Positions 8,789-63,659 of a DNA stretch of 64,000 nt are shown here, in pieces. The notes under the pieces were generated by a model. The model was not told the DNA's origin. It saw only the letters and a program-made list of their open reading frames with translations, and searched no databases. Origin of the DNA: Pempheris klunzingeri (taxonomy: Eukaryota > Chordata > Actinopteri > Acropomatiformes > Pempheridae); assembly GCF_042242105.1 (NCBI RefSeq), contig NC_092033.1, forward strand, positions 7,452,408 to 7,516,407. The letters run 5' to 3'. How positions within the stretch are numbered: the first letter of the stretch is position 1; each line of letters opens with the position of its first letter. A program made the position numbers and the translations under genes.

Positions 8789-29132
<20,344 letters not shown>

Positions 29133-35464: not shown

Positions 35465-38400
35465 TTATCGTAGATGGTATGGGACCTCCACCTGGAAAAT
35501 GACAATGCTATATCAGTTCTAAATGCAGACCATGACAAATATTTCTAAAGCACTGATGCTATGTAAGAAAAGCAATGGTGACAGCAAAGATAGGAATGAG
35601 AGGGATGAGTCAGTGGTCGTGACTGAGTAACATCAAAAGTTAGCAATTATGACCTCTGAGCCATGGGTACAAAAATGTGCCTCTCAAACCGCATTTCCCA
35701 TGAAATGGCCTCTTTTCATTATGAGGAGTAAAGCAAATTCATTGTGGTCATTTTTCCGGATGTTGGTGTTCAAACAATTGAAGAATTTTATTTTATATAG
35801 GTAATATGTTCAGTCTTATATATCTGTACCAGTATAAGTTGTTGTTTTAATAGATATAACATGCTAATTAGGCCGATTACGTTGCCTTTAGGCTGAGTCT
35901 GATTCGCTGTTTCCCTCTGTTTCCAGTCTTTATGCTATGCTAAGCTAATTATTTACATGGGTGAACGATTATAGCTGTTTCCTCGATAGGCTTGCAAACC
36001 TGGACATTGCATCAAATCTGTGTGTGACGTCGTCTGCAGCCTCAACAGATGAAGCGGGCTGATTTGTTGGATGTGTGTTGTTGGTGCGTGCTGTGGTAAC
36101 GTGTCATATCTGTCTTTATCAAAGCTCCACTGAAGAGTTTCTATAAATACCTGCATTAAGTGGCAGGAATTTCACAGCTAGGAGACCCCGCCATCTGAGG
36201 GCAGAGCTGATTTTCCACTCTAACAACGTAACAAGCTGTGCTAAAGCTTCAGCCAAGGTAATACTTGTCTCTCCTCTTGACGATAAAAAAATAGCAAGCA
36301 TTCATAATAAGAACACGAAAAAAATGTTCAGATGAATTAATTTGCTTTACAGTAACTGTTTGAAGTTGAAGCTGATTGTTCTCTTCTTCGTCTCATCATC
36401 TTTGTTTTCCATCCTTCTTTTTTTCTCTGTATCATCTTCCTCCTCTTCAGGGTAAGACTGGCTTGGCTGATATTATTATTGGCTATGTTTTATCTCTGTC
36501 TCTGGCTGTAAAAGCATTGTGATCATACCACAGAGCGTGCTGGTGGCAGGCAGACTTTTGTGTGCCCACCCCAGTGTAGAGGCAGAACATACCATGTCAG
36601 CCACAGAGATGAGTCAGACGCCACTGACTCTGTGTCATCCTCATCTAAATTAAACTAACTACTTGTTCAGTTTGCCTGTAGAGGGACTCTGCAGTTTTAC
36701 ATTATGTACATTGCTCGACTGCTTGTGTAGGAGGGAGATTTTTTTTTGTTGCCACTCTTCACTCAATTTATTTCTAAATAATCCAGATTCAGGCAGATAT
36801 AATGTTGACGGAACAATAAACTTATAATAGAATTGAAAAGGAAAAACATTAACATAAAATTTTGATCCATCTAAGCCGTCATTACCATTTTACCTCTAGT
36901 GGCACAAATCTGTCCACTCACCTGTCTCAGGCTGCGGACGCTGCTGTTGCGGATGGACTCCATCAGCTGGTCATGGGCTGACCTCATTGGCGTGGACGGC
37001 CTGCTGCCCTCCTCCCCTCTCCTCTCCACCGACACGGGCCTCAGCGTGTTCTTGAGCTCCTTCAGGATGCTACTGGTCTCGTCTTTCTCCAGCTCCCTCT
37101 CCTTCCCCCTCTTGCCCTTCTTACCTTTTGTCTTTCTCACCTTCTTGCTGCCCACCTCGTGCGCCTTGATGACCTCGGCGATCATCCTGGTGGGCTTCTT
37201 TTTCTCCTGCTGCGGGAGAGGTGGTGGCGGAGGAGGTGGGGGAGGAGGAGGAGGAGGTGGCGGGGGAGGAGGAGGTGGAGCAGGAGGAGTCTGTCTTTTA
37301 GCCAGGTCACTCCGGGGGAGTTTGGGTGAGGACCAAGGAGAGGCTCTGGGTGAGCTGTAAGGTGATGAACGAGGAGATCCTTTCTAGAGATGAAGAGAGG
37401 AACATGATAACTACATTTATAACCAGAAAGAGGCCAGTGGGCTCACTAATGGTGAAAGTTGCAGGTGTAAACAATAAGTGCAGTTTGAATTTAAGCATTC
37501 AAAGCAGTTGAGCTGTGAAAGTTTAGGCACCAAACAAGCAGTGAAAAATTTAAAAGACCTGAGTTGTGATTTGAAATGTAAGAGGTGAAAACAGTTAAAG
37601 TAGCTGAAAGCATTTTTGCATTTCAAGCACTGTGGGCAGTTGAATTGTCATCACAGACTGTATAAAAGAAGTGTAAATAGCTTCCAGGTCTGAAAAGTGA
37701 AGCCAAACTGGAAGTGCCTTAAATCTGCATTCGTTCTAAAGTCCCACCAGGGGACAAGTGTATGGAAGTGAGGAAGTGGAAGAGAAAGAGAAAATATGTC
37801 AACTTCTTGATTTATTACCTCGGTAAACACTTTCCCAATGAATTTATGATCTCAGTAATGAGTTTCAGGTGTTCTTCGATGAAGCATGATGTTCATTTAG
37901 TAAATCATGGTTTCATTTAGAGTAAAATAGACGATAAAACAGGGTGTGCTTTTTACTTTGTGACTAACCAGCCAGAGAAAGATAATGCCTAAACCTAGCC
38001 TATCAGAAGCAGAGGTCATTGCGAATCACCTCTGGCTCCAAACCAATATGGTGACACCCAAAATGCCAAACTCAAGGCTTCAAAACGTCGGTCCACAAAC
38101 TTCCAATATACAGTCAGTGATTGTCAGTTCAAACAGTTGAAGTATAGCTGAAATGTCAATCGATGTATAAACAACGACAGCAGTGAAAAACGTCTTGTAA
38201 CAAGTGGCCTTAGCGCTGAAAACAGCTGACCTGTCAGTGAAAGTGACTACAGAGAGCCTACAGTTGAATAACAGTTGAATTAGTAATTAAAGTGTAGCAG
38301 TAAAAGCAGTTATAGAGCTGAAGTGTGTGGGCTGTAAATAGTTGAGGTATCAGGAACTGTCAGCTGAACTGAACTGAATAATGTGTTTATTTCTAACTAC

Positions 38401-41251
38401 AGATAAATGGGTGATTACTGGTATTCAGTGATTATCAGTCAACAGGATGAACCAAGTGTGCCCGCTGTAGCTGCATAACATTAGCTTGTCGCTTGTCAGC
38501 TGAAGCTCTTTATACTGTTTTCACAGAGATGGGGACTTTGAACATTGAGAACAAAATAGAAGCAGGTTGGAACTGTTGGTCGTTGGACCCTGGTCCAACC
38601 AGACCAATCCAAATTTTATCCAAATTTTTTCACTTCACTCTGGAGCCAAGTTACATACCAGTGCAGTGGTTCTGGGGTTCACAGCTCCCTCGGGTGCTCC
38701 TTGTTGGCCCTGCTGCTGCTGTCTCTGCTCCTGCAGTCGTTTCTGTCTCTGGCGGTCCTGGTTCCTGGTGAGGATCCCCGTCATGCTCATCCTGGGTCCA
38801 GGCAGGTTGAACTGGTATCCCAGCTTGATCAAGGTGCAGTTTTCCCTCAGAATCTTCACCATCTCCATCTCTACCTATCGGGGGACAGATTGAGGAGGGC
38901 AGACATTGTTACACCTTGCAGATGCAGCTGGAGAAGAGGAACAGCTAACCAGAGTAAGGTGAAGATTTGTCTGATTGAGGTGAAATGGGAGGTGAGAGAG
39001 GAAGACTAACCTGTCCTCCGCACATGTGTCTCTGGTTGTGGAACCGAAGCTCAGTCAGGGTGGTGTTTCCTGGAAGCGCTTGCACCAGCGCCATCACGCC
39101 CTTCCCAGTCACATAATTGGATTCTATATTCAAACTGGTGATGGACGCGTTCTCCCTCAGCATCTTAGCAATAGCCACAGCCACAGGATCGTCGGCTCGG
39201 GTGTTGGCGAGGCTAAAGACCCGCACGTGTGTGTTTGACCTCAGTGCCTCAGCAAATCTGATTAGGGTTTCCTGAAGAGTAAAAATGTTTTTATTTCCAC
39301 TTGTCACCACCACCACCAGGTCAGAGCACCCCTGAGGACATCTAACACTTACATAGGGCCATTGTTTACCAAGTCCACCCGAGGGCTTGCACCTCATTGA
39401 AAAAAGCAAAGGTCATTTAAACTTGCTTTAAACTTTGCCAAGCTGTTAATTGAGAACACCATATTTTTGTTCATTTTCTAGTACAAAGTGTTTGTATCAA
39501 TATCAAACTACATCCAGCATTACATAACTATGGTAGGATGCCTGGTTCTAATCAACCAGCTGTTTTTTTGAGTTTTTCCTTCCCGAAGAAGGAGGGTCAT
39601 AAAGGGCAGGTGATGCCTCGGGCTGATCCATCGGACTGATCCATTGGCCTCATCGACTGCTGGACTCTTTTATTAGATTGTTTGTTAGCTTACACTTGTT
39701 TATTTCAGTGAACTTTGTAAAGCACTGTGAGACAACTCTGTTGTGATATTGGGCTATACAAATAAATTGAATTGAAATTGAATTGAATTGAATTGAATTG
39801 AATTGGTCCCATTCATTTACTCACAGTAGCGTTAATAAAGTAACCCTTCATCATTAAAAATGTTTTACAGTTTAGCTAATGATCTTCTACACTGATTAGA
39901 TTATTTTAATGTGTTTATGATTTAGGTCCTACGTCACGCTTTAAATGGTTGTACAGTTTATTAATGGATTAAAAGAAATCTGACTTATTTAACTTCCATC
40001 TGCTATTGAATACCTGATGAAACAAACACACACTTTTTGGTTCCAGCACGTCTGAGATTAATCTAAACTGAACTAATCTACTATTCTGACCAAACAGGGG
40101 AACGTGAAAGTCTTTTTTAACCTCAGTCAAGGATGTTCTTCTTTAGCTTTAGCACCGTGTTTACACGTGTTACTGATGTAAACAAACCTTAGAAGCATGT
40201 GTATTTATACCTGTGAGATATCGTCAATGTTGTTGAGATTAACCTCGGTGAGTTCAGGGTCGTTGCTAAGAGCTCGTTGGAGAGCTTCATCGACCACCGT
40301 TGGGTTTCCAGTCTGGTTTTGGTTGACGGGTGGAGGGGGAGGGGTCAGTCTCATAGGCTCCACCTTCTGCGGCTTCAGTAGCATTGGGGTGAAAGCCCCT
40401 GATGTCAGTGTCCCAGGATCCTTTGAGGGTTCAGGTTTTAATTTATTATCTTGTTCCTGGTCATCGTCATCCTCCTCATCTTCCTCCTCCTCTGTTACAG
40501 CTTCCTCACTCTCCTCTTCTTCTTCTTCATCATCTTCTTCTTCTTCTTCTTCTTCATTATCCTCCTCTTCTTCCTCTTCTTCTTCCTTCTCATTTTGTTT
40601 TTCATGCTTTTTCTGTTCTTTTTCATTTTCAACATCTTTTTCATCTTCTGCTCCACTGTTTTCTTCTGTCACACACTCTTCATGTTCTTCATCCTGTAAT
40701 TTGACAAAGTTATCCAGTCTTTGAAATGCAGTACGGGAATTATACATAATTGTTTTCTTAAAAACTTTAAGCTAAATTAACCCAGCTGGTTTTAACCTAA
40801 CTGTGGTTTTTAGTTTGTTTTATTTTCCCTCCCAGTAGTATCGCAATTTACTTCTTACTTTTAGCTTTTTTTTGTAGTGCCTTGACTTTCACCTGATACA
40901 ACTTCAAACAAGCTGGCTTTTACTCTGGCACATTACACAAATTCCGAGGAAATCTAATTACATGACATCACTGACCGGTTTAGGGCTTCCTCCACCTATC
41001 TCGTCCTCCAGCAGTCTACGTGTCTCATTTTCCCAGTACTTCATGAGGGCCTCTCTGCTGAAGGTGCCCGTTGGGGTCTTGTCCGTCTGGTCTCTCTGTC
41101 TGAGTCCTATGGGCACGTTGGCGTCAGGATCGATGTCAGCCAGCTCCTTCTCCAACTCAGCCAGCTCCTCAGGGCTGAGGGAAGCCAAAAGTTCATCCTC
41201 GTCGACATCTTCATACTTACTCAGCTCTCGACGGTAACCGAAACAGCTCAT
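35465..41251 (-). CDS. lmod2: Leiomodin-2, 6 coding exons, 574 aa
   Basis: Leiomodin-2 nucleates and elongates thin-filament actin at pointed ends in heart and skeletal muscle, with tropomyosin. Exons on the minus strand: 41251-40976, 40693-40211, 39271-39011, 38874-38659, 37383-36922 and 35491-35465; all join in phase 0. The start [14 protein letters not shown] and [15 protein letters not shown] match the tropomyosin- and actin-binding N-terminus. Exon 2 encodes a long Glu/Asp tract, then [22 protein letters not shown], opening the leucine-rich repeat domain. Exons 3 and 4 carry the repeats through [15 protein letters not shown]. Exon 5 has SSPY-SSPR-type repeats, 20 consecutive prolines, a Lys-rich stretch and the C-terminal WH2 ([20 protein letters not shown]). 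The final 27-nt exon (VEVPYHLR, stop) completes it. Human LMOD2 is 547 aa. Its place between wasl and asb15 supports lmod2 over lmod1 or lmod3. Confidence 0.95.
39541..39805 (+). mobile_element. L2-like LINE 3' end with (AATTG)n tail
   Basis: TTTTTGAGTTTTTCCTTCCC, then AAAGCACTGTGAGACAACTC, TGTTGTGATATTGGGCTATA and an AATTG-repeat tail. This is the typical 3' UTR pattern of fish LINE-2 (Maui-like) elements. It is 5'-truncated, lies in lmod2 intron 2 and runs antisense to the gene. Confidence 0.75.
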
Positions 41252-43083
41252 GACACAGCACAGATCAGTCGGTATGAGTTTAAACTACCAAAAAAAGAAG
41301 GACCAGTTCTTGTGTTGTGTATGATTCGATCTGGAGACCAAAATGAAGTAGCTGTGTGGGGATAGAGGTTCCAACAGAAAACAGGGTCCACCGTGAGGTT
41401 GCTGGAGATCCACGGACATAAGGGGTCATTGGAAATTCCCAATCGAGGTGATCCTTGCTGGGTGAAGGTGTTAGGACATACTGGGTCCAGTCAAAGGTGC
41501 TTCTGATGAGAGCCCGGCCGGCCGTGTTGCTTTGAGGGAGGGTATGTGTGTGTCTGTGTGCTCTTCCCTCTAATCTCCCCAGCTGCTGTTTAGGCCTTAA
41601 GAGAGGGATCAGAGGGGAGCGTACCACAGCGTGGGCCCCGTGATGCAGCGTCTTTTTTGGGAGGCACTGCTCTGAGAGACAGAGCCACAAAAAGCATGTG
41701 AGCTCAGAGACTGTGGCCTGCCGACGTAGCTGTCTGTCACCACGGTATGAGTGGCTTTGTTCATGGCCAAAAAAGACCAACTAGACCCAATAGAACAGAA
41801 CAAGAAAGACAAATGTATCACCCCAAAAAACATCACTGGCTCAGTCAATGCATGGCCATCAGCTAAGAGGTGTTGGCACATCCTCCATTGTTTTTGTCAG
41901 CTAAAATTTTCATACTCTTAACATGGCTGATGGAGATACATGTGGAAGCAGGGACAAAGAAAATAGCTGAGATCTGATAGGTTCATGGATGTGTTTTTAT
42001 AACATTTTTACACCACATTATGGTTATTTGACTCCAGGACTAATGTATGGACTGAGATACACTGTGTGTTCACCTCCCTGACCCAGTGAATGTCCAATAA
42101 TTTGAATTATTGGATGAATTGTCATGTCAAAGACATTCATGGTCTCCATAGGATGAATGATGTTGCATCACAGAATTTGTGTTGTAACGTAGCTTAAACT
42201 CAGTAGTAAGTCAGTTATTGGTGTTTTTATCTTTATTTTATTTTTCAAAATATAGACCTATTTGAGAGCAGATTTATTAAATTGAAAGTTACAAAATGCA
42301 ACCCAGCAGCGAGGTTAGCCCTGTGTCTCTCATATACATACACACTCCTACGTACAAACACATCATCACTCCAAACCCCTCAGTCTGGCACAGAGAACAT
42401 AATAAAATAATGATGTTATCAAAGGCTTATGAGGACACTTACAAGCCAGCACAAAGTGAGAATAATTATTATCCACACATATGGCTGTTTTCACTTAACC
42501 TGCCTGATTAGACCCTGTGCACACACCATGCTTTACATTTCTCTCACACTCCTGATAGGGTGGGACAACTACTACTTAAATCCTTTAGACTGGTTGATGT
42601 AGTTTGGTGACTTCATTGAATTCCCTGCCCAATTTCTCCTGGAGTTGTGATTTCCAAGAGGTGAAAACGCCTCTGTGGGTGGAGAGGACATTTAACACAT
42701 CCATCTATCTACGACTTTACAGTGCCGCCTAGAATGTAAGCAGTACATTAATAATATTGTACAAGACAGGAATTGGAAGAGCAGTCGGGAAATTCAGAAT
42801 TAAACAAAAATATCCAAGGCATAATATACTGCATCACTTTTGTGCAAAATAAGTAGGCTCCATAAAGAAAAGAGGCTTTTCAGTTGTTCAAGCCTGGGAG
42901 GAAATATTCAATACTTCTCCATTTCTCCATCCAGTCACACTGCAAGGCACTCCAGCTCATAACATACACAACTTAAATGAAATACGAAAGGGCTTTGAGA
43001 GTAATATATATTCCCATTTGGCCTTTTTTTAAAGAGTGACTTGTGCTTTTTTAAATTTGTGTTTGGCATAATTAAAATCAGTT
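41252..43083. other. Spacer between asb15 (3' end) and lmod2 (5' end)
   Basis: Both flanking genes read leftward. The part near 41252-41900 should hold the lmod2 5' UTR and promoter, and the part near 42250-43083 the asb15 3' UTR; TTTATT near 42272 is AATAAA on the minus strand. I see no further exon, and no perfect CArG or MEF2 site in the proximal lmod2 flank (CCAAAAAAGA near 41768 is one base off a CArG box). Confidence 0.4.
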
Positions 43084-46000
43084 TCACGTCGACGAGAAGT
43101 CATGATACAGGTCGCACCCTCTGTAGGTCAGGTAGTTCTTCAGTGACGGAGGAAAGGGGACAGCAGCCATTGCTTCAGGGTTATTCAGCGTCAAAAGGCT
43201 CATGTGATCTCTGATTACCAGTCGGCACAAGTGCTGCAGAGATCGTGGCTTGCCTGGAGACACAGAAACGAGCATATAGAGCTGGTTAAAACATCCTTAA
43301 ATTGGATCTTTGCTTAAAACTACAAGGTAATGGATTTGAAGTTTTACTCAGGATGTCAGAAATCTCATCCCACTCAGGACTCTTCTCCAGGATGCGTTTG
43401 AGGTTGGGACAGATGCTGACGTGGCTGACGTAGTCCAGGAGCACCCTTACAACACTGCCAACCAGATATGTCAAACACGACACCGACACAAACTCACAGA
43501 ACTGAAAGAGAACAAATCAGGGATCTGATTTATTGTATATGTTGTGTTATTGGCTTGATGAACTGACTGCTGTCTGTGTGTGTATATATGACTGCTCTCA
43601 CTGAAATGACGTTAGGTTGACTGTAAATCTGGTAGGCTTGGTTATGGAGTTCAATCCAGGTACTGTCGAGTTCATCGCCGTTACCATGGCAACACTGGAA
43701 ACACCTACAAGAGACGATATTGCAGAGATGAAATATTAAAATGTTAAATTCTAAATTCTTAAACATTGAATGCACATTTAGAAAACCTGATTTATTCAAC
43801 TGAAACCAAGCATGTTAGTTTTAATTTTACAGTTTCTAGCCGTACTTGTACACTTGATATCCATTATTGAGGAGCAGTCGCATCATGACGCGGTCCCTCA
43901 GGCTGTACTGCAGGGCTGTGGGGAACAGTGTGTTGGTGATCACCCTGAAGTAGCAATTAACTTCCGCCCCATAGGACAGCAGCAGCTGCACCAGCTCATA
44001 CCTGCAAATGACCAAAGGGAGACGTCAGATGGTTACTGCAACACAACCTATCCTCCATCACTTTGATAATGAACTAGAATGCACACAAATGTATGCTGCA
44101 CACCTCTCAGCACGTATAGCGACCAGGATGCATCGTAGTGGGTCCAGATCAGTTTTCGCTCCGGCTGCCAGCAGCATCTCGGCACAGGTCACATCACCGT
44201 TGGAAACGGCAAAGTACAGAGGAGTCTTCCTCAGATCCACGTAGTTCTCTGCAACAATACTCACATTTGATCTGGGGACAAGCTGCCAGCAACACGTCCA
44301 AAAGAGGGATTATGCCAGTGGTTTAAATGTAGTTTATTATCTACAAGATGTATTTATAAAACATTACTTTTTAGAAAGCTGTTGATTTCCATTCATTAAA
44401 CTACAGCAGGAAAATCAGCTTACAGATTTTAAAAACTTGCATGATGTTTCAAGCAGTGACTAAACCTGTCATTGGTGGTGCATTTAGGGACACTATAATG
44501 TAAGACTGTCAAGACTTATAGGCTATCTTTATTTAAAGATTCATATGTTGCCCTACCAGAGATGTGTGTGTCTAGCAAAGCATTGACGTCATATTTTTTC
44601 TCGAGAAGCAGCCTCAGACACTCAACCTGTCCCCCGTCAGCTGCTGAGTGGACAGGGTTCTGGCCTGAGAGGTAGATGGCTCTCTTCTTGGTGAAGGGGA
44701 TGAGAGTCCTCAGGATGCTACAGAGAGAAAGAGAGAGAGAAGGGAGAGACAAACAGGAAGACAGTGAGGGACAGAAACTGAAAAACAAATGCTAAAAGAA
44801 GAAAACAGGACATAGAGAAAAATGTTCATTAGATTGTGGTTTGAGCAACAGTGTTATTCAGTGACAGAGCTGAAACAGTGATACAATAAACAGAGGGCTC
44901 TTTGTGGAGTTGACGCGAGTGACAGCACTGCAGAGCTGTGAGGTGCAGGGAGAGACATGTTTCAGTCTACAGTTTGATCAAGTTGGCTGCAAAATAGGAG
45001 GAAAATAATGTTAATTTGTCTCAAGTCATTTTTTTTCTCTTAGCAACTGGGTTATCTTTCAAAACTCAGATATTTTCTAACTTGTGGCATGAGAATTTTT
45101 CCATGTCTAAAGCATCAGGATGATTGGAGGCCCTTTTGCATTGAGGTCAATGTAGCTTCAGGACACCGGGGTAAGCTCACAGTATGTGTCCCTCATATGC
45201 AGCTCTGTGGATGGGCAGTTGGCAGGCGTAGCTGGCTACATTCGGGTTGGCTCCGTGCTGCAGGAGCAGCTCGACACTGTCCAGGTTTCCAGACCCAGCT
45301 GCATCATACAGGACTGTGTCTCCATTGCTGGCCTGGGCATTCACGTCACCACCTAGTGGAGCGCAGGGGAATACAAAAATTGTTCTGTGGTGTTAATCAA
45401 TGCACAAACTCATGTCATGACTCATGTGAAGCATTACACAGTAGTTTGGTGTTTTACCATGCTGTATGAGTATATCCAAATCTTCAGTGTTGCCATATTG
45501 AGCCGCGACCCCCAGAGGAGTCACCCCATGACTGCCTCTTGTAGTCACTTGGGCCCCGTGTCGGAGCAGCAGCGTCAGAACAGCTGGACAACCCACCTGG
45601 TGCAAGAAATAGGAAGCAAGGATGTAAAGAAGGAAGGAAAGACGAAGGAAGGAGAAAATGTGACGTTGTCTCAGGATGTTGAGTCCTGATTCTCTCTTGC
45701 TCTGGTCAGTATTAGTGCTGCTTTGTTCACCTTTGCAGCTTCGTGGATGGCCATCCACTTTATGAGACACACCTGCTCCACAAAGGCGCCACTCATTAGG
45801 AGGGATGAAACCATGTCATATGATCTCTGTCTCACTGCTACAGTGTAGAGAAGACATAATGTAAAAAGGATGAAGGATGAATGAAGGATTTATTATTAAT
45901 GAAGGAGTCATAATTAAAAATTAATTACAAAATTAGGCTGATGACCACAGCAGTTACAGATGTTTTCACAAGAACAACAGCCATGCTAGCAGCTTGTTGA

Positions 46001-55833: not shown

Positions 55834-58800
55834 ATGGAGAAACGGTCTGATGCTACAGGTAAGTTAAGCTAAGCTAACATTAGCAAGCTAACAGTAGCTG
55901 CCGCCGAGAACTGCGATCAGAAAATCAGACGCAGGGTAAGCCATCTGTTGCAGTAAACTGGCTGTTCGCTTTTAATAGCACGTCCACATGCGTGTAGCAA
56001 AGTCTTTATCGGTTATTTTGGCGCTGTTAAGTGGTTAGCTGGCTGCCGAGCTAAGGCAGGGGCTGTCCGGGCGGCTTCATTTAAAATGAAATCATTCTTC
56101 CTCTCCGCGTGTCCCGATCGGTCGCTGCATCCTGCAACATCAACTACGACGACTCCCACAAGTAACAACAAGCGGCCTGCATCATCAATTTAAAGTAGGA
56201 ATGTAACTCGGCTGCTGTTTGGCGCTCATTCTCTTCACGACAGCTCATGCACACGCAGACGTGCACACTTTCAACCCCTCTGCAGCTTATCTGTAATGAT
56301 CAGAGCATGTCGTTAGCACTGCAGCGCCCCCCTCAGCAGCTTCTGACTCCACCTGCAAAACCAGCCCTGCTTTTGATTGTTAGTTTTTAACACACACGTT
56401 TTACAAACTCAGTGGTCCATTTCATTATCTCTGACTGAAGGGGATGTTTAGATTGTAGCTGAAGGGCAAGTAACACAAAGCACAAGTTAAAGCAATAAAA
56501 CGTGTGAATGTCTTCCTGCAATCTTTTTCTCACACTTTAGTTGGGAGACGGCAGCCAGTATAAAAAAAGATCTTTATATCTACTAGTTTAGATGTAGGGG
56601 ATGAGAGACACTTTTCTGTTCAGTGTATCAACGGGTAAATCCAATCTAAGAACTGGTTCAATTAAACATCCACAAAACAGTGACGTCAAAGACCTCTCTA
56701 TATGAAACGTAGCCAGCTTCAAACAAAAATCACTCTTCTGGGTTTTTATACATGCTAATATAAAATTTCCTAACTTTATCTTATGCTCTGCACAGGTGTC
56801 GGAGGTGCCCTTCCCCTTTCCTCCCTTCGCTTAATGGCTTCCCCCCTGCAGCTGACATACTCGTACATATGGCAGGTCATACGGCAGAGGAACGTGAAGC
56901 TGTACGGAAAGGTGGAGGAGTTTGTCACCATGGTGACACAGACTGTTCCCGAGCTCATGAGTTTGAAGCAGACTGCCCAGCTCATCTTGGGGTTGAGAGC
57001 AAGGGTGAGAGTTCATGTCCCCATCAAACATTGTGTAATGTATGTAAGTCAAAGATATAAAAACAGGAAATTCAAGTGGATAGGTTTAACACCACTCAGC
57101 AATTCATAGTTGCAAGCATCAGGGCTCAGTGTCATGTACAAAAACTGAGTAACACTTTGGATGTTGTCAGGTTTGTACCCTCCAGCTACTACACAGTTGC
57201 CACATGTGGTTATCACACCAAGCCTGTGATGCTCGGTCTCCAGGCTTCTCAAATGGCATTTGATGCTTCAGATTTGTTCCTTAAGGCTACTGAACATCAA
57301 AGTGTTCACACCACTGCTGATGAACTCCTTATGTGTCCTGTCACAAACCCCACACATTTAAAAAAAAAAAAAATAAAATCTGGTCAGCATGTCTGAGATG
57401 CTTAATCCTTATAACTTAATCGATACTTTATGTTCATCTGAAGTTTTTTTTGGTCAAGTTTGATTTGTGGTTTGTCTTATGACTATAATTTGTTCTTGTC
57501 CCATAGATAATTTTGGAATTGCTTCACAAAGATGGTCCACCAGATACCAAGGCTATTCAAACTCTCATAAATAAGCTGAAGGTGTCCACATCCTCAGGGG
57601 TAAGAATGGGAACTTTTTTTCCTCCTGAGAAAGATACAGTATGCAGTTGTGCTGGACTATGGAGCCTCAATATGTGACTCAAACCCGAATTAAAATATTT
57701 TCTTTGTTGCAGAAGGACTCGGAAGTGGAGAAATGTCAAACGAACTTCATGGTGCTGGTCCAAAATCTGCTTAAAAGCCATGCTGAGAGGAAGCGCTTCT
57801 TCCAGGTATCACATCTTTCTTAATGTGGTATGAGGCAGTGGTGGGCGGTCATGACGCACAGCCATTTTTCATTTTACTTACACGCTTGCAGATTATTTAG
57901 TCATAGCAGGTGCTTTGTGGCTGTGTTTTGAATAATGTGTTCAGCCGTTACAGTTTCACAATGCCGTGTCACAATGTTGTTAAACTACATATTTATCTCT
58001 TTGCAGGAAGTGTTTCCTGTTCAGTATGGCACAAAGTTCGATACAGCGCTGCAGGCTCTGACTGCAGGTCTGGTGTGCAAGCTGGAGCAACTTCTGCCTG
58101 TTCCAAATCTCTCCCAGGTGTGCACACATACTGTTAGGTTGACATTTTGTCTGGAGCATTCACACCAGGATGGGCCACAAATGGGTGCAAAATGCTTGAG
58201 TTCCTCTGAGTTCCACAAGTGTTTTGTAGTTGGTCTCTACACACAGACTGACACAAAAACTGAATTTAGGTGATAAGTAATATACATTACAGTATCTGGA
58301 AACATTTGTCTACAAAAGTCAACTTCTCCAGTTGCTTTAAGCCTTTTGAAAAAACACCTCAAACCAATTTTACTGTGTAGATAGAAATGAAAATAGCTCT
58401 AAAAACAACAATGTAAGAATTCAATAAAGACATTTAGTCAACCAATTTTATTTTAAGGGCTAGTTTTAAGATATTTTACTGGAGACATTTTAAAGCTTGT
58501 CAGGATCTGGAAAAATTAATACATCATTTTTTTATATTATTCTTGGTGAGCTTTTACAAGAAGCTTTTGGATGATAGAGATTTATGAAAACATGATCCAA
58601 CCAAATGAAATCTATACTGCCAACTCCTTCATTATTTCCATTTTCTGCTCCTCCACCTCAGCTCGGTTCCATGATCTCAATGGAGCCCACTATCTTGGAG
58701 GCATGTGGAGGCTTTATCCCTGAACCTGGGGACTTGAAGACTCTCCTCCAGCACCAGCAGGCCAAGGGACTCCTCAGTGTTAAAGGTAAGCTTTGGGTTG

Positions 58801-60590
58801 TTTGCATGAACATGTGATGGAATGCAGAAAGGGAAATCTTTTTTTAAAAAAGTGACAATTAATTTGACGAAGCTTTCTCCATTTGTGCAGCAACCATCTC
58901 ATCCTCTGTCGGCGACTGTGTGCTGTCTTCACTGGCCTTCCGGCCCAAACCCACAGAACCACCACCACTACCACCACCAGAATCACCAAAGCGATTAGAG
59001 GTTACTCTCAACGAAACAAGCCCAACCTCCCTCAGTGACACTGAAGATTTGGGATTGATGTCAGATGACTCTGACAGTCCGGCAATCTCTGCTACTGGGC
59101 CGCAGAGGAGAGGGCGATACAGTAATAAAGCAGCTGATGGGAGTGCTGTGAAGGAAAAAAGTGTCACAACAACAACACCTGAAAGCAAGAATTTGGTTCA
59201 AGAGAAGAGTGACAGTCAGGAAAAGTCTTCCACAACTCTACAAACAGGACAGGAAGATGAAGCAGCAGCAGCACAAGAGAAACCAGGAGCACAGCGGGGC
59301 CTGGCCTTAAAATCAATCCCTTTCAGGGTTGTTCAAATGCCCGTCAAAACTGCTCCAACCTTTCAGAGTGCTGGCAGTGCAGGAACAAAAGACGGCCAAA
59401 AGCCCCAGACTCAGCGAGTCACATTGCACCAGTGGGTGTCTCAGATTGCCACCAACACGCTCTCACTCCCAACCCTGCCACCACTTCCCCCAGCCAGGTT
59501 TAGCGCAGGTGACGACATGAAGCCAAGCATAAGAAGAAAAAAGCAAATCAGGCCTCCAGCTGATAGATTCACCTGCAGTGTGTGCGATAAGAGCTTCCCT
59601 TATCAGTCCAAGCTAATGGACCATGAGCGCATTCATACAGGAGAGAAGCCTTTCGTTTGCACGGCATGCAACAAAAGCTTCAGAACACAGGCGTTCCTCA
59701 ACAACCACCTGAAGACCCACAGCACGGCTCGGCCTTACGCTTGTGGCCAGTGCGGCAAGTGTTTCACCAAATTACAAAGCTTGACCAAGCATGTGCTGGC
59801 CCACAGCGGCCAAAAGCCCTTCTTTTGCAACATCTGCAACAAGGGCTTCACACAGTCCACCTACTTCAAAAGACACATGGAGTGCCACACAAGCCAGATG
59901 ACATTCCCCTGCAAGCACTGCAGCAAAAGCTTCCCAACGGCTTTCAAGCTGTCGAACCACGAGCGTTGGCACACCAGGGATCGTCCTCACATGTGTGAGC
60001 GCTGCGGGAAGAGATTCCTCGTCCCCAGCCTGTTGAAGAGACACATGGGCTACCACATTGGCGACCGCCAGTACCTCTGCTCACAGTGCGGAAAGACCTT
60101 CGTCTATTTGTCCGACCTGAAGAGACACCAGCAAGACCACGTGCCCAAAGCTAAGATCCCATGCCCCATTTGCCAAAAGAAGTTCTCTAGCAAGTACTGC
60201 CTGAGGGTCCACCTGAGGATCCACACCAGAGAGAGACCCTACCGGTGCTCCATATGCGAAAAGACCTTCACGCAGGTTGGGAATCTGAAAGTCCACATTA
60301 GGCTTCACACCAACGAACGTCCATTCAGCTGTGACGTGTGCGGGAAGACCTACAAGTTGGCGTCGCATCTGAACGTCCACAAAAGGACTCACACGTGCAA
60401 GAAGCCCTGGACGTGTGACACGTGCGGGAAGGGATTCTCCGTCCACGGCCTTCTTAAGAAGCATGAGCAGTTGCATACGAGGGACGCTAACCCTGACTTC
60501 TCTGGTAAACGGAGACACAGGGGTAAGCACAAGAAGCACTCCCTCAAGAGGAAGTACGATGAGGAAGACGAGGGTAGCGATGATTATTAA
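55834..60590 (+). CDS. TINF2 N-terminal (TRFH-like) domain fused to eleven C2H2 zinc fingers, 7 exons, 784 aa
   Basis: Exons: 55834-55858, 56796-57004, 57507-57599, 57713-57805, 58007-58117, 58662-58785 and 58891-60590, all in phase to TAA. Residues about 22-215 align with human TIN2's N-terminal shelterin domain. WQVIRQRNVKLYGKVEEF matches its WQVVRGRCVEHFPRVLEF region, LILGLRARIILELL its LCMGLKAKVVVELI region, and LVCKLEQLLPVPNLSQL its LCQLEKALPTPQAQQL region. In TIN2 this fold binds TRF2 and TPP1. A Ser/Pro-rich, partly acidic linker (about 229-440) follows. Then come eleven fingers at about 28-residue spacing, residues 445-747 (first FTCSVCDKSF, last WTCDTCGKGF), each with CX2C and HX3H. 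A basic/acidic tail ends the protein. No TRF1-docking FxLxP motif is seen in the linker. A nuclear, sequence-specific DNA-binding role is likely; a telomeric role is inference. I know no mammalian counterpart of the fusion. Confidence 0.9.
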
Positions 60591-60608: not shown

Positions 60609-60614
60609 TAATAA
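60609..60614 (+). terminator. Candidate polyadenylation signal of the zinc finger gene
   Basis: AATAAA starts 19 bases after the stop codon. Another candidate is at about 61610 (GCAGAAAAATAAACAC). The first would leave an exceptionally short 3' UTR, so the second may be the main one. Confidence 0.35.
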
Positions 60615-61985
60615 ATAAGGATGTTCTGATCAGGGGTGTCGGCTAACGCTGATTATTGATATGATTACTATTGACTATTAGAAAGCTACTGCATAAGTGA
60701 CCCTTTGAACCATGCTGTTTGTTACCACGTGGTGGGGATCACATCACCATGATGGTTTGGGTAGAGAAAACACATTTTGAATGATAGTGAGATCATTTTT
60801 TCTGATCATCGAATTTAAAGACTACCAATTTGTGACTTATTAGTCATATGGGTATTAGCTGGCACCAATCATTGCCCGGCCAGCTAGGGCATCTTAACTA
60901 ATCCAGTCCATTGTGTCAGTGCTGTTCTGCATAGAAGAGAGTGATATGAAAAAATTAGGTTAGGTAATGATGTTATCCTAAGGTGTCAAATTTTGAAAAA
61001 TACAAGGTAGCAACGCAGTATTTTTGATCCTCTGATCCCCTTTGGAGGTGTAATTTTCATTACAAAAATCTACAAAGGGTTAGAAGAAATCTTGTTTTCC
61101 AAACATTGTGCTTTTCAAGATGCTGAGTGAAGAATAGCCAACATTTAAGAGAAGGGCATCATGTAACCATTAAAATCATAGTACTTCAATGCATGGGACT
61201 GTAAATAATTTGTCTTCCATGTAATAAAATGTTGTAGTGTCAGTAGGAAACATTTTGTCTTTGTTACTGTATCAATGTTGGCATTGTAGTGATTCAAAAC
61301 TACTTTTAACATGTTTTTAGTTAACCTTGAACTGTACACATTACTCTCATTACTATTTTGTTTGAGTGAAAACAGATTAATTTGTGTTTATCAGAATTTT
61401 GCTTCTTACCCGCAGTAGATGCAGTTCTATTTTTTCCTTTGCTTTAACATTCATGATGTTGAAGTAACATGTGTGGACACAATAAACATGTGCAAATGTG
61501 TGCAGAGGTTGTGCTGTGAATCCTATTATAGCAGCCATGTATATAGATAAGCAACAAATAAGTGACACACACCTGTTCTTAATATCTTTTGTTTTTCATG
61601 TTTTGCAGAAAAATAAACACACATCAAAAGACTGATGTCTTGCTCGTTTTTATTCCCTTGTAAGTTAGTCTTGACTAAACTGCCCATCATGAGCCCTGAA
61701 TGGGACCTAAATATGGGTTCATATTAAGTCAGTCAACCTATTAGTGGCCAAAGGTAAAACATGATAGCTGTAATACTGACCTCTTTGACGTTATCCTTAC
61801 TGTACTCAGAGGTAATGATGTGTTGACGTGTTTAGTGCTGACAGCATCTGTGTCATTGGTAAATAAGCCACATTTTATGAGACAAATTCTGCATATAAGA
61901 GCCCATTTCCACTTTGCACTGTTAAGGAGGGCAAGACCGCTGACTCCGCCCTCAGCCGAGCTGTAACTACAGCAACCGCCATCTG
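60615..61985. other. 3' UTR and/or spacer, no gene recognised
   Basis: AT-rich sequence with scattered AATAAA-type words (about 61222 and 61610). I see no exon, RNA gene or clear transposon. Confidence 0.4.
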
Positions 61986-62112: not shown

Positions 62113-62400
62113 ATGGAGCCACCGGTTTTCTGGTACCGTGAGGAGGCTGAGGCACCTGTCATCTGCCTGCGTGTGGTCAGAAGAAAAAACACCTGAAGGA
62201 ATCTTTTAGAAACGAGAAAGTGTACAGGGAGATCTCAGGTGGACAGGTGGCCACGGGGATGAATCACTCGGCAAAACAGTGCAGGGAGAAGATTAAGAAG
62301 CTTAAACAGGAAAATAAAAAAACTAAATGACAGAAGTGGGGCTATCAGAAGGAACTTCAGGTGGTGTGACAGTAACACTGGCAGCAACACTGACACCTGA
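62113..62400 (+). pseudogene. Frameshifted Myb/SANT-like DNA-binding domain exon
   Basis: ATG 62113 starts a 28-codon frame (MEPPVFWYREEAEAP...) with the Trp and Glu spacing of a fish Myb/SANT-like domain, ending at TGA. The domain then continues in another frame: FRNEKVYREISGGQ and HSAKQCREKIKKLKQEN (about 62203-62327). It continues in a third frame with NDRSGAIRRNFRW (about 62327-62365). Two frameshifts break one recognisable domain, suggesting decay. Such genes are multicopy in fish and related to domesticated transposon-linked DNA-binding proteins. Sequencing error or unusual splicing could mimic this. Confidence 0.6.
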
Positions 62401-62799: not shown

Positions 62800-62884
62800 G
62801 TTGCCTTATTGTAAAACATGTGCATACCACTGGTTGTGTGTTTAGTTTCATGATTTGATAGATTATAATCTGTTGCTTTCACAG

Positions 62885-62973
62885 TTACGCCGGCGTGCTG
62901 TTGGTCGAATAGAGAGGTCCAAGCATTGCTGACACTTTGGGCAAGTCCAGCTGTTCAAAAAGAACTTCTCAAT
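62885..62973 (+). CDS. Second Myb/SANT-like exon (partial domain)
   Basis: Bounded by TTTCACAG and AAT|GTGAGT. In one frame it reads WSNREVQALLTLWASPAVQK then ELLN, the first half of a Myb/SANT-like DNA-binding domain (Trp-x4-Val-x2-Leu-Leu-x2-Trp pattern). The second half of the domain is not seen downstream in the window. It could be a surviving exon of the gene whose first exon is frameshifted, or part of the same relic. Confidence 0.45.
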
Positions 62974-63659
62974 GTGAGTTTTACCTCATATTTTTGTAAA
63001 TTTGTCTATTTAATATTGACCAACAATGTGCTTCTATTCTAACTTGTATTTGTAAGTAATTTCTCTATGTTGCGTAGTTATGCTGCTTCTTTGGCTAGGT
63101 TTGTCTAGTAAAAATGACACACCTCGTGTTAGACAAGCAGTACAACAACATATTAGTGTCTGTTGTGGTGTCTGACTCAGATGGTGTTGGGATTGTGTCG
63201 CAGTGAGAGCTCAACTAAACCGCTGAATATCCAGCCTCATCTTGGTGTCATTCGGAAACCCACAGTGGGCTCCAACTACAATCAGGAGGTAAGTCTGAAG
63301 GTGTGGTGCAGAACTGAACTGAAAGCAGGAAAGTGCTGCAGAGTGGTGTGTTGATTATCAGTTTTATCAGCAGTATAAGCATCACAACATGTTGTAATGG
63401 AGATTTAAATAGGAATGTGTCTTAAGTTAGGCGCCTGTCTCCGCTTTTCACTATTGATTAATTATAATTTGTGTTGAATATTGATCTGAAGTTAATTTTG
63501 ATAGATTCCACTCCAGTTGTCTTCTTCAGCACCTTAGCAAGGCTGTAGCTGTGTGTGGCCGACGCTGACCTGAGGCTCTGTTGTTCACATGAAAGGGACA
63601 AGCAAGCTCCTCTGTTGTTTCTGTAAGAGACAGAAGGGAAAGGTTGCTGAGCTGTACAT
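62974..63659. other. Sequence after the SANT-like exon, status unclear
   Basis: An open segment with possible splice signals is present at about 63181-63288 (GACTCAG acceptor, CAGGAG|GTAAGT donor). Its translation shows no recognisable domain, so I do not call an exon. Confidence 0.3.

Follow-up and report, generated by a model that had tools for sequence, protein, structure and literature searches.

Results

The stretch of DNA analyzed here (the window, 64,000 nucleotides of Pempheris klunzingeri contig NC_092033.1, positions 7,452,408 to 7,516,407 of the forward strand) carries a predicted gene that joins a TINF2_N domain, known from the telomere protein TIN2, to an array of eleven C2H2 zinc fingers. 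An earlier sequence-only reading of the window had claimed such a fusion in a single seven-exon frame, and our analysis confirmed it: all seven exons are as that reading proposed them, AG/GT dinucleotides are present at all internal exon borders, phases are compatible, and the joined exons form a 784-codon stop-free frame (55834-60590, plus strand; the end coordinate includes the TAA) in which Pfam recognizes both parts. The features of the gene are as follows.

55834..55858, plus strand: exon 1 (predicted), start codon, with A at -3 and G at +4
56796..57004, plus strand: exon 2, start of TINF2_N (from 56870); a similar exon is found in the 15 other loci
57507..57599, plus strand: exon 3, TINF2_N, phase 0-0
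57713..57805, plus strand: exon 4, TINF2_N, phase 0-0
58007..58117, plus strand: exon 5, end of TINF2_N, with A/G at the positions of human F152/E153
58662..58785, plus strand: exon 6, extension past the Pfam domain, similar in paralogues
58891..60590, plus strand: exon 7, linker, eleven C2H2 fingers, basic/acidic tail and stop codon TAA
58911..58946, plus strand: exon-7 start motif GDCVLSSLAFRP, similar in canonical tinf2 and paralogues
58891..59573, plus strand: linker, of which about 199 residues align collinearly with exon 7 of canonical tinf2 (alignment against shuffles)
59574..60476, plus strand: eleven C2H2 fingers, first Cys to last His
60610..60615, plus strand: first AATAAA, 20 bases past the stop

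The domain assignment held up in a Pfam scan of the spliced 784-residue protein, where the TINF2_N match was full-length (residues 34-177, 149 of 149 profile positions, 168.3 bits, E = 1.9e-49; cut-off 29.4), and when the first 218 residues were compared with solved structures, the sole match up to E = 10 was the TRFH domain of human TIN2 (5xyf; E = 5.1e-12, 49.2 bits). None of the KRAB, SCAN, BTB and ZAD domains was among the 18 Pfam-A matches of the protein (E up to 1), and residues 1-444 had no match to the bacterial and archaeal models of NCBIfam. In the C-terminal part, Pfam marked 11 zf-C2H2 stretches and the strict pattern C-x2-C-x12-H-x3-5-H was found 11 times; with the same strict motif, no other frame with at least two fingers was found in the 64-kb window. 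Because no interruption of the frame separates the exon-7 start GDCVLSSLAFRP, whose counterpart in canonical tinf2 is GDSILASLSLPP, from the fingers, we read the predicted locus as one gene and not two neighbours. Visual inspection showed an exon-7-type start and fingers in one frame at 7 or more of the 14 zinc-finger loci of this genome (the window, L014, L018, L019, L020, L021 and L022).

These other loci emerged from a six-frame search of the 646-Mb genome with the TINF2_N model PF14973, the counts of which are lower bounds. At least 32 matches were obtained, grouped into at least 16 loci: nine on C22, where the window lies, three on C15, two on C20, and one each on C23 and C24. Downstream C2H2 frames on the same strand accompany TINF2_N at 14 of the 16 loci, the window included, the remaining two being L009 and L017, and the arrays hold 8 to 21 fingers by a loose motif, with L015 (4 + 13) and L023 (4 + 5) each having theirs in two frames. 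The picture of a single exotic fusion, which the sequence-only reading had conveyed, was thus rejected, as TINF2_N occurs at 15 non-canonical loci (14 with C2H2 frames and one with Myb/SANT-like units), of which the window gene is one. Pfam scores for the domain were 190.7 bits in human TIN2, 160 to 192 bits in three zinc-finger paralogues and 88 bits in L023, and the fish domains are 22 to 29% identical to that of human TIN2. In L023 (4914-6148; C24:0.49 Mb), the finger frames are split over two reading frames, by either decay or assembly error.

Exons of the 15 other loci were modelled by similarity to those of the window gene. Since the search took only GT/AG candidates, with phases 0-0 for exons 3 to 5 and 0-1 for exon 6, shared phases are partly built into the models, and their agreement shows only that homologous candidates exist. 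Exons were partly hand-picked in L015, L017, L018, L020, L021 and L023, as was exon 1 of L017. In the final models of all 15 loci, exons 2 to 5 have, counted from the start of the frame, lengths that are multiples of three, and one base remains after exon 6, with exons 3 and 4 merged in the L023 model; 73 of 74 donors are GT, the other being the GC donor of L021 exon 6, modelled by eye where there was no GT candidate.

The question of whether a separate canonical tinf2 exists in this genome could be answered, as L017, on C23, has an open frame of 535 codons in 10 exons and no fingers or Myb/SANT-like units. Its TINF2_N domain scores 180.8 bits and matches the human TIN2 structure at E = 7.7e-17 (64.5 bits, compared with 49.2 bits for the window protein). 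The tail of L017 includes KTKHGTYVPTLREY, a pattern unique to it in a search of the window and the loci retrieved, and its final residues are KTKHGTYVPTLREYS, which we take to resemble the end of human TIN2L; no TIN2L-type C-terminal tail was found in the window. L017 is flanked on one side by a homez-type homeobox gene (best match in the Protein Data Bank, 2ecc, Homez) and on the other by dhrs4 and a CAS-type SH3 gene; in humans, HOMEZ, DHRS4, EFS and TINF2 lie in 14q11-q12. Judged by tail, neighbours and structure match, L017 is the predicted canonical tinf2, separate from the window gene, and the candidacy of the window gene itself as the fish tinf2 was rejected in its favour. In both L017 (4733-4740) and L009 (6295-6302), the stop that ends a long exon 7 sits within a GTAAGA splice donor, that of the following intron; a short form would result if this intron were retained and a long form if it were spliced out, as in TIN2S and TIN2L.

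Human TIN2 carrying A15R, F152A or E153A is reported to lose pull-down of TPP1 and TRF2 (PMC8262337). At the corresponding positions, the window protein has T/A/G and L017 has V/W/E, and the aromatic residue and E pair at the F152/E153 positions is retained in 5 of the 15 non-canonical copies (L009, L010, L011, L013 and L016). With regard to TRF1, the sequence-only reading had seen no docking motif in the linker and had counted this in favour of repurposing. The observation stands, as a search for [FY]xLxP, covering the FxLxP motif, found none in the window protein; the argument does not, because L017, the canonical copy, was likewise found to have none, and the absence is therefore non-discriminating. 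Absence from both proteins does fit a report that direct TERF1 telomere binding arose in therian mammals, with TERF1 and TIN2 absent or showing no enrichment in several other vertebrates (PMC5309834).

Exon 7 was compared in the window gene and in 8 of the 14 other non-canonical loci, with L017 as the reference (L010, L011, L012, L016, L019 and L023 were omitted). About 199 residues of the window linker run collinear with L017 exon 7, with an alignment score of 114 against 79 for the best of 300 shuffles, and of 82 against a best shuffle of 69 when the first 25 residues are removed. For the other eight linkers, likeness to L017 is confined to the start, or the score is near those of the shuffles, L022 being intermediate (score 58, 0 of 300 shuffles; 4 of 300 without the first 25 residues). 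The window copy thus retained more of TIN2 outside the domain than the eight relatives compared, yet its TPP1-linked positions are altered. Within the linker, KSIPFRVVQMP (residues 359-369) has the P-F-R-x4-P spacing of the region of human TIN2 that is altered in dyskeratosis congenita; the P-F-R-x4-P string was not seen in L017, and we left it aside as perhaps due to chance.

Finger contacts were read in 13 of the 14 arrays, L023 being left out due to its fingers lying in two frames and L015 being represented by its second frame. In the window array, Arg occupies helix position -1 in none of the 11 fingers, His occupies position 3 in one, and the number of fingers with Arg at -1 ranges between 0 and 2 in each of the other 12 arrays. 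The contacts of the window array do not suggest a G-rich TTAGGG site, and a TTAGGG-binding array is disfavoured, albeit by a crude rule. We also considered a fast change of DNA contacts, as in KRAB zinc fingers. Differing contact positions versus other finger positions amounted to 19/32 versus 73/127, 26/48 versus 81/191, and 31/40 versus 89/158 in three tandem pairs, which is suggestive in two pairs and flat in one, and with synonymous change in the finger exons of these pairs near or at saturation, we make no such claim.

L009 differs from the zinc-finger loci in having no downstream C2H2 frame, and about seven Myb/SANT-like units over approximately 6.5 kb, with KFY-type exons between them.

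L009 5834-7228 and L034 817-4951 (C22:7.728-7.736 Mb): TINF2_N and run of Myb/SANT-like units, a TRFH-like plus Myb plan

The first of these units (Myb_DNA-bind_4, 63.4 bits) joins the TINF2_N exons in frame via a 29-base exon, the sole junction checked, and we take it to be distinct from the telobox Myb of TRF1 and TRF2. Myb/SANT-like pieces also lie within the window, downstream of the zinc finger gene (62151-62327 and 62869-63042, plus strand), one scoring 33.1 bits and the other a weak 12.9, under the cut-off. The first seems to shift frame near 62151-62196, and these pieces are perhaps a small gene or a relic.

Discussion

We consider it likely that the window gene is a member of a family of C2H2 zinc finger genes that derives from TIN2 and is led by its TRFH-like domain, repurposed for a new context, and proteins of this type probably serve to regulate genes or chromatin and not as subunits of shelterin. 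The preference for repurposing expressed in the sequence-only reading is hence supported, by the existence of a separate canonical tinf2 and by the altered TPP1-linked positions of the window protein. As we envision it, a copy of tinf2 would have exchanged its TIN2L tail for a finger array while retaining the N-terminal TRFH-like domain, exon 6 and the beginning of exon 7. Multiplication of this copy would have followed, C22 now carrying 9 of the 16 loci. In the resulting proteins, the fingers would bind a specific DNA site, probably not TTAGGG, the TRFH-like domain would dock a partner, which, going by human TIN2, is probably a short peptide, and the protein would bring the docked partner to the DNA site chosen by the fingers; expression, DNA site, partner and effect on genes are all features that we infer.

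The phylogeny of the 16 fish TINF2_N domains and human TIN2 agrees with this reading in part, and several other points weigh against it. L017 falls outside the other 15 copies with a support of 81/92, short of star level. The tree gives good support to three tandem pairs, leaves 10 of its 14 inner branches open and does not fix the position of the window copy; forcing this copy to group with L017 lowers the log-likelihood by 13.4 (p-AU = 0.089), and such a grouping is not firmly excluded. Values of dN/dS for the TINF2_N exons (0.26, 0.19 and 0.23) are consistent with constraint on the domain, but they pertain to the three tandem pairs and not to the window copy, whose nearest paralogue shares 47% identity with it. 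Contact rules from human TIN2 are an imperfect guide for fish, because no fish copy has A at position 15, L017 included, and L017 is without FxLxP. The Arg count at position -1 says little about the window copy because this residue is rare in all 13 arrays, and, more generally, C2H2 recognition rules are crude and finger contacts do not predict a DNA site. The likeness of the window linker to canonical exon 7 also exceeds what a generic linker that has drifted would be expected to show and, because it runs along the length of the linker, part of the TIN2 function that lies outside the TPP1 groove may have been kept. Lastly, the zebrafish Tinf2 ortholog was reported to be enriched on TTAGGG DNA, and zebrafish tinf2 mutants were reported to develop normally (PMC11846949), a phenotype that would also fit redundancy with relatives.

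A broader idea, rather unlikely in our judgment, is that fish made the docking hub for shelterin peptides into a set of proteins that bind specific DNA sequences. The TRFH-like domain, mounted on C2H2 arrays at 14 loci and on Myb/SANT-like units at one, would then deliver peptides of shelterin, or peptides like them, to sites within chromosomes, and telomere proteins would have partners in common with the control of genes or repeats. We are no more inclined to see the window protein as an accessory of shelterin, whose domain would still bind Terf2, Tpp1 or another shelterin peptide while the fingers anchor it at telomeric, subtelomeric or interstitial repeats. The full-length TINF2_N domain and the collinear linker would suit such a role, as would the other C2H2 proteins known at telomeres and the redundancy by which the normal zebrafish mutants could be explained (PMC11846949), but the TPP1-linked positions are now T/A/G, Arg at -1 is found in none of the eleven fingers, a canonical tinf2 exists, and no FxLxP is found in the window protein, though the same holds for L017. 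About as improbable is that the paralogues associate with each other, forming homo- or heterodimers like SCAN or BTB proteins and presenting paired finger arrays with no outside partner; the TRFH domains of TRF1 and TRF2 do dimerize and 16 loci coexist here, but that of TIN2 is described as a scaffold for TPP1 and TRF2 motifs (PMC7617103). That two adjoining genes were misread as one, or that the locus is a decaying pseudogene, is very improbable, even if some copies may be decaying, as the broken finger frames of L023 suggest, given the seven-exon open frame with its AG/GT borders, the single frame shared by exon-7 start and fingers here and, by eye, in at least six paralogues, and the C2H2 frames that follow TINF2_N at 14 of 16 loci.

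If the window gene does belong to a TIN2-derived zinc finger family, it can be set beside several known systems. With TIN2 itself (human 5xyf, fish L017) it shares the N-terminal TRFH-like domain, and with L017 also the exon layout, exon 6, the exon-7 start and a collinear linker; unlike TIN2, it has eleven fingers where the TIN2L tail stands and altered TPP1-linked positions, and L017 stays outside the 15-copy group. TRF1 and TRF2 likewise combine a TRFH-type fold with a DNA-binding part, a plan that paralogue L009 approaches with TINF2_N and Myb/SANT-like units, but the window protein bears C2H2 fingers instead, and the first unit of L009 matches Myb_DNA-bind_4. C2H2 families led by KRAB, SCAN, BTB or ZAD place a domain for protein interaction at the N-terminus and a C2H2 array at the C-terminus, with a linker between them, and have multiplied in one lineage. 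The window gene has the same layout of leading domain, linker and C-terminal array, and several paralogues, and differs in that its leading domain is TINF2_N. FiNZ, a zinc finger family known from cyprinid/cypriniform fish and reported to act in the repression of transposable elements, is a comparable fish C2H2 expansion under a lineage-specific N-terminal domain, although the domain is a different one and the main text of these reports does not mention TINF2 (PMC10547256, PMC11603059).

No description of a C2H2 family led by TINF2_N was found in the open-access literature, as searched by titles and the starts of abstracts, with subscription papers and preprints outside the search. Database entries for such fish proteins very likely exist, and the fact that three of the paralogues score like human TIN2, although fish and human domains share only 22 to 29% identity, suggests that the sequences from which the Pfam model was built already include fish relatives. 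As far as we could see, therefore, the domain-led C2H2 family is a known kind to which TINF2_N as a leading domain is new. The family shows that a vertebrate can multiply a core telomere-protection domain and join it to DNA-binding arrays while keeping its canonical tinf2 alongside. If the domain still binds peptides of the TRF2, TPP1 or Apollo type, 15 genes could compete with shelterin or divert it, and, if it does not, TINF2_N would join KRAB, SCAN, BTB and FiNZ as the leading domain of vertebrate zinc finger families. In either case, automatic naming of fish proteins from a TINF2_N match alone would mislabel such genes as telomere proteins.

Other genes in the window

Three further genes were noted in the window, their domains from Pfam and their extents by eye.

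27293-27907, plus strand: two WH2 motifs after a proline-rich stretch, presumably a WASL-like gene
36874-41365, minus strand: a proline-rich frame and a frame resembling leucine-rich repeats, under the cut-off, which we take to be leiomodin-like
45396-45815, minus strand: an ankyrin repeat, presumably of an ASB-like gene

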